A DNA stretch of 64,000 nucleotides from Idiomarina sp. (GTDB taxonomy: Bacteria; Pseudomonadota; Gammaproteobacteria; Enterobacterales; Alteromonadaceae): the NCBI GenBank assembly GCA_020831965.1, contig JAFIFP010000001.1, forward strand, positions 186,001 through 250,000, given 5' to 3'. Under the pieces are notes generated by a model. That model did no database searches. It was not told the DNA's origin and saw only the letters and a list, made by a program, of their open reading frames with translations. The translations under genes and the position numbers were made by a program. Within the stretch, counting starts at the first letter, position 1; every line of letters begins with the position of its first letter. Positions 9,539 through 14,640 of this stretch are shown in pieces.

Positions 9539-10750
9539 ATGATTGGCCTCTTAGGCATGTTGTTTTTGCTTGGCGTGGCGTATGCCTTTTCTTCGTCTCG
9601 CGCCAATATTAATTGGCGAACTGTGGGCGGTGCGTTTGCGCTGCAACTCGGTTTGGGTGCCTTGGTGCTTTACGTACCTTTCGGCCAGGACTTGTTGCTC
9701 GGCATGTCGAACGGCGTGGCCAATGTCATAAGTTATGCAGACGCTGGGTTTGCTTTCTTGTTTGGTGATATTGGCGCCTACTCTCAGGGCTTTATTTTTG
9801 CCATTCATGTGTTGGGCGTCATTATCTTCTTCTCTGCCCTTATCTCTATTTTGTATTACATCGGCGTGATGTCTTGGGTAATTCGCCTAATCGGTGGTGG
9901 TTTACAGCGCCTGTTAGGTACGAGTCGTCCCGAGTCTATGTCTGCAGCAGCAAATATCTTCGTGGGTCAGACGGAAGCGCCGCTCGTGGTGCGTCCTTAT
10001 ATCCCAACCATGACGCGATCTGAATTGTTTGCGGTGATGGTGGGTGGATTGGGTTCGGTATCAGGTTCGGTGCTAGCGGGTTACGCTGGGATCGGAATCG
10101 AGCTTAAGTATCTGATTGCCGCATGTTTCATGGCGGCTCCCGGCGCGTTGTTGATGGCAAAAATCATCATGCCAGAGACCGAAGAACCATTAAATGAGCT
10201 TGTGACCCCACCGGCGGAAGAGAAGCGTGCGAACGTTATTGATGCGGCGGCAGCAGGTGCAGCGAGCGGTTTGCAGCTCGCGATGAATGTGGGTGCCATG
10301 CTGCTTGCGTTTGTGGCACTGATTGCTTTGCTAAACGGTATTTTAGGCTGGTTTGGTGGCTGGTTTGGACAAGATGAACTCACCATGCAGCAAATTTTTG
10401 GCTTTGTCTTCCAGCCACTGGCGTGGTTATTGGGTATTCCATGGCACGAAGCGCAGCTGGCGGGTAGCTTTATTGGCCAGAAAATAGTTATTAATGAGTT
10501 CGTGGCTTACCTCGACTTTGCTCAGTATCGGGAGACGATGAGCGCACAAAGTCAGGTGATCATCACCTTTATGCTGTGTGGTTTTGCAAATATTTCGTCA
10601 ATAGCCATCCTCCTCGGAGGGCTTGGCGGTATGGCACCGAGCCGGAGAAAGGATATTGCCACTTTAGGTGTCCGAGCGTTATTGGCTGCGACACTAGCGA
10701 ACTTTATGAGTGCGAGTATTGCCGGAGTATTTTTCTTCTTAGGCGGATAA
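9539..10750 (+). CDS. nupC: NupC-type concentrative nucleoside transporter
   Basis: A 403-residue inner-membrane protein of the CNT family that imports nucleosides with H+ or Na+. Visible family signatures are [20 protein letters not shown] in the transport core, [15 protein letters not shown], and the second hairpin motif [15 protein letters not shown], with the usual [14 protein letters not shown] near the end. ATG at 9539 has an AGGGAT site. It starts 44 bases after udk, so the two are probably cotranscribed. Confidence 0.92.
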
Positions 10751-12555: not shown

Positions 12556-12727
12556 GAGAAGCTCCGTTTAAATGATTCTGTATAAAGATAGTATATGGAG
12601 AGTCTGATCGTTCAGCCTCAGAGTGCCGTAAAGAATCCGTAAATACTAGCGTGCAGATTGAATTTGCAGCGTCTGGCGATGAATGAGATCATAAACCCCT
12701 GTTGTTGTAGTTGGTTGAGTGAGCGTA

Positions 12728-14086
12728 ATGAGTTCAAGACATTTTGACTATTTGAGTATTGGTGCGGGTAGTGGTGGTATTGCTTCTGCGAACAGAGCGG
12801 CTATTCGTGGAGCAAAAGCCGCGGTTATCGAGGCGAAGGCTGTTGGTGGTACCTGTGTGAACGTTGGGTGTGTGCCGAAAAAGGTCATGTGGTACGGCGC
12901 TCATGTTGCGGAGGCCTTAAAGTACGCTAAGGCTTATGGGTTCGAGCTCGAGCAGAAAGGATTTGATTGGTCTGAGCTGGTGAAGAATCGTGAGGCGTAT
13001 ATCGAGCGTATTCACGGTGCTTATCATCGAGGATTTGAGGGTAATGGTGTTGAATACATCGAAGGGTTTGCCAAGTTTGTCGGCCCGAATGCTGTTGAAG
13101 TGAATGGTGAGCGAATTACCGCCGATCACATTACTATCGCTGTGGGTGGACGCCCAGTAATTCCGCAGGTGCCTGGGGCGGAGTTTGGTATCGATTCCGA
13201 TGGCTTCTTTGCGCTCACAGAGCAGCCAAAGAAAGCTGTAGTTGTTGGTGCGGGTTACATCGCAGTTGAGATCGCTGGTGTATTGCATGCGCTGGGGACA
13301 AATACTCATTTGCTTGTTCGGCATGACCGACCATTACGAGGATTTGACCGGGACATTATTGATACCTTGCTCGGCTTGCTTGAGCGTCATGGCCCGACCT
13401 TGCATACTTTTTCGGAAGTGAAGGAAGTAGCGAAGAATGACGATGGCTTGCTGACAATTGAGACAGTTAATGGCGAGAAGATTACCGATGTGGATTGCCT
13501 GATTTGGGCCGTGGGTCGCGAGCCTGCGACCTCTTCGATTGGCTTAGATGAAGCTGGCGTTCAGTGTGATGAGCAAGGGTTTATTCGCACGGATAAATAT
13601 CAGAACACAAACGTGAGTGGTATTTATGCCGTTGGCGATATTACGGGTGAAGCTCAACTGACCCCTGTTGCAATTAAAGCTGGGAGACTTCTTGCGGAAC
13701 GCTTGTTTAATTCTGACATGCCGGACGCGCATATGGATTACAGCTTGGTGCCTACTATTGTGTTTAGTCACCCACCAATCGGGACTATTGGACTGACTGA
13801 ACTTGAGGCGATTGAGCAGTTTGGTGAGTCGTCAGTGAAAGTCTATAAGTCTGGCTTTGCTGCCATGTACAACGCAATCACGCCATATCGTGAACTGAGC
13901 ACCTTTAAGCTTATTTGTGTTGGCGAGGAAGAGAAGGTTGTTGGACTTCATGGCATTGGAGAGGGCATGGACGAGATCTTACAAGGCTTTGCCGTCGCGA
14001 TTAAAATGGGCGCAACCAAAGCAGACTTCGACGCCACCATCGCACTCCACCCCACCTCCGCCGAAGAGTTCGTAACCCTCAGATGA
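12728..14086 (+). CDS. gor: Glutathione-disulfide reductase
   Basis: NADPH-dependent flavoenzyme that keeps glutathione reduced in the cytoplasm. From ATG 12728, 452 residues: FAD-binding [15 protein letters not shown], redox pair Cys43/Cys48 in [18 protein letters not shown]-binding [13 protein letters not shown], second FAD motif [10 protein letters not shown], and the C-terminal [12 protein letters not shown] whose His is the active-site base. An in-frame GTG at 12719 is an alternative start. Oddity: the final ~65 bases switch to almost uniformly C-ending codons, and the stop codon is contiguous with the repeat cluster that follows, suggesting that the 3' end was replaced. Confidence 0.95.
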
Positions 14087-14389
14087 GGGTCAGATGAACA
14101 TTTGGTGTTTTTATTTGGGGTCAGATGAAGTTTTTAGTAGCCGTTTGTAGTGTTTCTCTGGGCTTGAGCGTTACTGTTCTGACCCTTAATGAGCTTCTTC
14201 TGACCCCGATGGTTTTATTTCTCCTACTATATCAATAGGTTATTTTTCGGGTGATTAGCGAAGTTAGCAAAGTGAAGGTCATATCAATAACTTAGGGTTA
14301 CATGATCTGACCCTCATCAATGTCATCTGACCCTATACTCTAAACGCCTTTAAAAACGTTACTTAGTGCCATCTTTCTTCATCTGACCC
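14087..14389. repeat. Cluster of seven GGGTCAGATGA-type repeats in both orientations
   Basis: Forward copies lie at 14087-14098 and 14117-14130; inverted copies at 14177-14185, 14194-14207, 14303-14313, 14323-14333 and 14377-14389. The last is an exact reverse complement of the second over 13 bases. A further nine-base ATATCAATA occurs twice between them. There is no coding frame in this ~300-base gap. GGGGTCAGA-type units in opposed orientations resemble the REP-like sequences mobilised by single-strand tyrosine transposases (RAYTs, IS200/IS605-related), but no such transposase is present in the window. Confidence 0.8.
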
Positions 14390-14393
14390 TGTT

Positions 14394-14570
14394 TTATTTG
14401 GGGGTGTTTTCGAGTTTTTCGATTTTTTTCCAAAGCTCTTCGGCTTCGAGGGAGAGTTGGGAGTACGTGCGGATATCGCCTTTGCGTTGGGCGAGCATGC
14501 CTTTCTCTAGTAGTTGCTGATGCTCTTTTCTGAGCTTTTTGGTTGGATTACTTTTAAAAATACCGAACAT
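14394..14570 (-). CDS. Small DUF6435-like protein
   Basis: A 58-residue cytoplasmic protein starting MFGIFKSNPTKKLRK and continuing as a basic then acidic amphipathic helix (LLEKGMLAQRKGDIRTYSQ, then EAEELWKKIEKLE). This matches small proteins annotated DUF6435 in Alteromonadales and Vibrionales, of unknown function. ATG at 14570 is chosen over a TTG two codons earlier; a GAGG site lies upstream. Its stop codon is only four bases from the last unit of the repeat cluster. Confidence 0.75.
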   Translation of the reverse strand: MFGIFKSNPTKKLRKEHQQLLEKGMLAQRKGDIRTYSQLSLEAEELWKKIEKLENTPK

Positions 14571-14640
14571 GTTCAATCCTCAGGTGCGTTATTGCCAATG
14601 AGTACGCACCTGAGTGAGATTAAGTTCTGCCTAGAATGAA

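Follow-up and report, generated by a model that had tools for sequence, protein, structure and literature searches.

The window analysed here, a 64,000-nt stretch that corresponds to C9:186001-250000 of a 2.67-Mb Idiomarina sp. genome in 14 contigs (G000), carries gor, the gene for glutathione-disulfide reductase (455 aa; NF004776, 697 bits), at 12719-14086 on the forward strand. Immediately after the gor stop codon, a TGA at 14084-14086, begins the first of seven copies of an eight-nucleotide box, GGGTCAGA, which together make up an array of 303 nt (14087-14389). On the other side lies a small convergent open reading frame whose profile match places it in the DUF6435/Lacal_2735 family (14394-14576, reverse strand); its stop codon, at 14394-14396, is 4 nt from the last box, and the array fills the whole gap between the two genes.

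Two forward and five inverted boxes had been counted here in an earlier note on this DNA, and the coordinates of all seven bear this out. Box 1 (14087-14094), the left outer box, is followed by TGAAC and points forward, as does box 2 (14118-14125), which starts 31 nt past it, a spacing shared with the left end of the complete element described below. The inverted boxes are box 3 (14178-14185) and box 4 (14199-14206), 21 nt apart; box 5 (14306-14313) and box 6 (14326-14333), 20 nt apart; and the right outer box 7 (14382-14389), 56 nt from box 6. An extended 11-mer, GGGTCAGATGA, is exact at four of the seven (14087, 14118, 14323 and 14379) and present with one mismatch at two more (14196 and 14303), and the box at 14178 has the 8-mer alone in common with the others. 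The exact 13-nt inverted pair already described (14118-14130 with 14377-14389) was found as claimed, together with a longer one of 14 nt, the longest in the array, whose left arm (14082-14095, forward) takes in the gor stop codon and whose right arm lies at 14305-14318 (reverse). The window holds nine GGGTCAGA copies in total, the two outside the array being at 9964 and 19713; whole-window shuffles give a mean of 1.12 and at most 3, and 200 simulated 64-kb windows never placed more than one box in any 303-nt stretch.

A dispersed repeat family and its single complete element

Across the genome the motif is far more frequent than chance would allow: there are 36 copies of GGGTCAGATGA and none of its reversed control, and GGGTCAGA occurs 146 times against 55 for the reversed control. 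Box arrays form 20 loci with 2-11 boxes each, mostly with inward-pointing outer boxes, with recurring spacings of 20/21, 31, 56-60, 67 and 84-88 nt, and with identities between copies mostly of about 75-85%. One of these loci (L032) is a complete element, at C3:239313-240302, in which a transposase gene (open frame of 227 aa, L032:1228-1911) stands between inverted GGGTCAGA-box ends; the other 19, the window array included, have no such gene. The boxes read +31+56+24- upstream of the gene and +23-56- downstream, and a sequence fitting GGGGWSAS, GGGGTCAG, is present on both sides. This open frame is the only match to Y1_Tnp (PF01797) in the genome. It sits on a different contig from the window, in keeping with the earlier statement that the window has no transposase gene, and it supplies the Y1 gene flanked by the same units that the note had proposed as a check.

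The window array resembles both this element and its gene-less relatives. Over 49 nt, its left end (14087-14135, forward) shares 75.5% identity with that of the complete element, and its right 64-nt terminal repeat (14326-14389, reverse) shares 75-81% with the corresponding repeats of five other loci (L042 81%, L036 78%, L034 77%, L044 and L045 75%). The two origins offered before, a non-autonomous array or an eroded copy, are not fully separable, because the identity of its ends to other copies is no more than about 75-82%. Since copies have diverged to this extent across the genome, the activity of the element may be old.

Two other loci show further forms. At L034 (C9:158328-158804; L034:828-1305), full terminal repeats mirror the ends of the complete element, and a 279-nt centre encodes a TIGR03643/DUF2805 protein of 84 aa, as if a passenger, in place of the transposase. 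L045 (C3:308980-309323) contains a multi-box segment duplicated in tandem (194 nt; 92.7% identity over 150 nt), which indicates that arrays also grow by larger units.

The transposase scores 49.3 bits against PF01797 (cut-off 23) and carries the motifs NHVH, WE and YIELNP in an alignment of 14 proteins, in all of which the HUH histidines (H60, H62), Tyr120 and YIELNP are invariant. An AlphaFold2 model (mean pLDDT 82.4, pTM 0.81) has as its best structural match the E. coli TnpA-REP structure 4er8 (E 1.2e-7; by sequence alone, E 0.027), followed by IS608 TnpA (2vjv_A). Two family-level models score below their cut-offs, at 69.2 bits for NCBIfam REP_Tyr_transpos (cut-off 80) and 22.3 bits for the IS200 equivalog NF033573 (cut-off 55). 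The element shares the HUH/Y1 fold with IS200/IS605 elements such as IS608, but it has inverted-repeat ends where those have same-strand hairpins; these ends, the single gene copy and the NF033573 score argue against an IS200/IS605 insertion sequence.

The motifs point instead to TnpA-Y1 subclass 2.1, for which Table 1 of PMC6006769 lists NHVH, W[EQ] and YIELNP; the median length given in that survey, 238 aa, is close to the 227 aa found here, and the C-terminal extension is shared. According to the available text of PMC6006769, 14.9% of strains carry genes of this subclass, which corresponds to the TIRYTs of PMC3733652; the terminal inverted repeats (TIRs) of the latter are described there as having the common consensus GGGGWSAS. 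The fit of both the protein motifs and the TIR consensus identifies the boxes, as far as sequence can, as TIRs of a TIRYT and not as GTAG-type REPs. As in the TIRtrons and TIR families of PMC3733652, so far as that source describes them, a Y1 gene lies between inverted repeats fitting GGGGWSAS, and repeats are also dispersed as singles, dimers or groups; here, instead, several boxes at fixed spacings make up the TIR module, and at some ends host flank is duplicated together with GGGTC. The survey portion of PMC6006769 available to us reports subclass 2.1 genes as free of REP-like structures or sequences, whereas in this genome a dispersed repeat family exists.

The earlier note had likened the boxes to REP-like units tied to RAYT transposases. 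One part of that comparison stands, namely an IS200-like (Y1) transposase flanked by the same units; the units themselves are not REPs as published. That the array consists of canonical REP/BIME elements of a RAYT seems to us highly improbable, even though the boxes lie mostly between genes, form clusters, take both orientations and accompany a Y1 gene. Like REPs and REPINs as presented in PMC2817692, PMC3116915 and PMC8266576, these are gene-less intergenic inverted repeats tied to a single-copy Y1 gene, and the modelled transposase fold is closest to TnpA-REP. Yet there is no canonical REP hairpin, the box contexts listed, read by eye, include no GTAG-tagged stem-loop and no GTAG or GTGG tetranucleotide at a hairpin foot, and NHVH, WE and YIELNP place the protein in another branch, subclass 2.1, which according to the same part of PMC6006769 lacks REPs. 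A covarying hairpin inside the 56-nt module was also rejected: RNAalifold on 13 modules returned 7 pairs, all between boxes and none with both sides changed. Nor does a box in the loop of a stem hold as a general feature, since stems of at least 5 bp occur in 8 of 47 TIRs (shuffles: mean 2.9, maximum 8) and of at least 4 bp in 17 of 47 (mean 9.0, maximum 17), and the complete element has none at either end; such stems are a feature of some lineages alone. As for a REPIN-type unit, in which two inverted copies replicate as one hairpin, arrays hold 2-11 boxes here, and two of the other genomes (G008 and G027) show regular inverted pairs; for REPINs, junctions of excised or circular DNA are reported in PMC3116915.

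We therefore read the window array, with a probability of roughly 0.8, as non-autonomous, a TIR array that belongs to a TIRYT system. The array would be a gene-less relative of a small mobile element whose sole full copy, with its transposase gene, resides elsewhere in the genome. The element is of an ordinary kind, with one unexplained detail at its ends, the flank duplication discussed below.

Box forms in other genomes

A scan of named genomes found the closest relative of the transposase in Aliidiomarina celeris (65%), and GGGTCAGA lies near the gene in 18 of 21 loci of relatives from named genomes, the remaining 3 having no box. A search for inverted repeats in the flanks of the gene in sister genomes, made without use of the motif, gave a longest exact repeat containing GGGTC or its complement at 12 of 20 loci, and one without it at 8. 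In a listing anchored on GGGTC, the letters past this core vary by lineage. What ties gene and repeats together most strongly is that dispersed boxes repeat the spacing of the boxes at their own genome's gene. In G008, a member of the same genus, inverted box pairs with a spacing of 21 nt stand on either side of the transposase gene (C1:2707699), and this spacing returns in many dispersed pairs; among eight of them listed, four carry the letters of the pairs at the gene and four a second tail. In G027, inverted spacing is 15 nt both at the transposase gene and in dispersed boxes, and seven of eight copies listed carry the palindrome seen at the gene. This last genome, from another genus, has a clean REPIN-like TIR family: 89 places hold very regular palindromes, GGGGTCAGAACATGTTCTGACCCC, often as two copies about 110-190 nt apart.

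A simple correlation of gene presence with box number over 58 genomes was not clean. Two genomes have a transposase relative (52% and 48%) and only 6 and 12 boxes, and three have 149, 79 and 128 GGGTCAGA boxes against 59, 36 and 69 for reversed controls, an about twofold excess, with no transposase relative found in those three. Three further genomes contain many weak Y1 matches (34, 11 and 11), most of them in open frames 325-395 aa long; they recall subclass 2.3, a multi-copy group that PMC6006769, in the text at hand, describes for Alteromonadales. One genome (G014, C2:345991-347648) has a 63% relative of the transposase gene adjoining fabV, as in the genome studied here; the match holds one in-frame TAA, and this is a shared locus, apparently in decay.

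Arrays at gene ends

At array ends in this genome that face a frame open for at least 500 nt, scored as open stretches and not as annotated genes, 10 of 14 have the stop codon between -30 and +20 of a box. Both pgi and a Na_H_antiporter (Pfam) gene use as stop the TGA inside GTCAGATGA, and no sister orthologue ends inside a box (0 of 15 for pgi, 0 of 16 for the antiporter gene). Fifteen of 16 sister orthologues of fabV end in Trp-stop; here the protein extends as QQIGV and stops within a flank duplication, in its second copy. The repeats thus rewrite the ends of pgi, the antiporter gene and fabV. For GTAG REPs, the available text of PMC3733652 already documents both the supply of stop codons and locations less than 20 bp from the ends of convergent genes.

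Behind gor itself, which was located in all 17 genus members searched, boxes lie within 400 nt in two: the seven described here, and two in G008. The G008 pair has that genome's own spacing and its second tail, a form typical of G008, and because of this we consider two independent insertions at one gene end likely. By analogy with TnpA-REP and IS200/IS605 enzymes, the transposase, supplied in trans, would recognize boxes in single-stranded DNA with inverted copies folded back, cut the box strand and join the ends, and arrays would thereby be seeded near stop codons and extended box by box. Movement and cutting are steps we infer, as is any effect on gor, at whose 3' end the array may serve passively as an RNA foldback.

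The large foldback downstream of gor that the earlier note envisaged holds up in part. Folding of single sequences from the window region beats shuffles (RNA, forward strand, z -3.7, 0 of 100 shuffles as good; DNA, forward strand, z -2.6, 1 of 100; DNA, reverse strand, z -4.2, 0 of 100), but no covariation stands behind any specific structure. L034 folds more strongly, at z -8.6. In a further alternative, the array is kept for a function, as a terminator or mRNA 3'-end stabilizer for gor and the convergent gene, and its mobile origin is mere history. The way the array fills the convergent gap, the RNA fold and the occurrence of box forms behind gor in two species would suit such a role; we judge it quite unlikely, given the lack of covariation, the 15 of 17 genus members with no box within 400 nt behind gor, and a terminator scan that found one weak 5-pair site (14387-14403, 0.5 expected) alongside an Rfam search with no match at the array. 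Identification of the array as a GTAG REP, an intrinsic terminator or an Rfam family is unsupported, and the reading as a non-autonomous TIR array remains the one we prefer.

Flank duplications at array ends

The detail that sets some of these arrays apart was found by a motif-independent scan for exact tandem repeats (period 6-40) over 56,926 bp of this genome's own loci, all chosen for holding boxes. Ten of the 14 tandem repeats lie near boxes (1.3 expected), and seven of these ten duplicate host flank together with the start of the outer box, GGGTC; of the other three, two take in a whole box and one is unrelated. The joint falls at GGGTC^A in four (L032, L034, L036 and L045) and one base past it in three (exactly so in L041; in both L037 and L100 a joint at GGGTC^A would fit too). 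One base of the unit differs in L032 and L036, and the L034 joint could be one base earlier. L036 shows an eighth, imperfect duplication at its right end, outside the count of seven. In L034, L036 (left) and L041 (right), the first letters of the duplicated unit are the very TAA that ends the adjacent open frame; the arguments from selection or microhomology that we considered do not account for all three. In the literature searched on these elements, to the extent of the text available, we found no description of a duplication of host flank plus GGGTC.

One tentative idea, which we rate as well short of probable, is that the duplications are footprints of the transposase: a nick on the box strand at GGGTC^A, followed by rejoining of the freed 3' end upstream (several at C^T or C^A), would copy host flank and GGGTC. 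Since TnpA-REP enzymes in vitro cut at CT and one also at CA, according to the portion of PMC8266576 at hand, C^A is a plausible cut. The C before the duplicated unit is equally a one-base microhomology, and stalling at a foldback is an alternative.

The duplications are less regular elsewhere. Among relatives, 50 loci gave 44 tandems, of which 19 lie near boxes (1.8 expected), and the 3' limits of these 19 scatter (0, 1, 1, 2, 3, 4, 5, 5, 6, 8, 8, 8, 11, 12, 17, 18 and 21, plus two with no assigned limit), three being at positions 5-6 as measured; the tandem scored 18 (L080) ends at the GGGTC of a GGGTCG box outside the script's box count. As a general signature the duplication fails, for a prediction set beforehand was not borne out in G008, where three of six tandems lie near boxes (0.2 expected) and none ends at position 5 or 6 among the first 30 of 52 matches, or in G027, where the one tandem is not near a box among the first 30 of 89 matches.

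This scatter, the lack of joints at position 5 or 6 in G008 and G027 and the one-base microhomology would also suit arrays and duplications made by the host, through replication slippage at strong foldbacks, or template switching there, with the transposase uninvolved; local amplification of REPINs is probably the work of the replication machinery, according to the text of PMC8049555 consulted. We regard a purely host-made origin as unlikely. It leaves unexplained both the dispersal to about twenty loci and the match of each genome's box form with the ends found at its transposase gene, and in the genome studied here none of the seven flank duplications has its limit more than one base from GGGTC^A.

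If the footprint reading is true, the joints would let a cleavage site of the TIR-associated branch be read from sequence, at CA or CT dinucleotides, and would explain the outward growth of arrays toward gene ends. In the literature text consulted we saw neither a cleavage site nor a substrate for the subclass 2.1 branch, nor data on its mobility. With its single intact gene, some twenty box loci and joints that can be read where arrays end, this genome offers concrete substrates for this branch.
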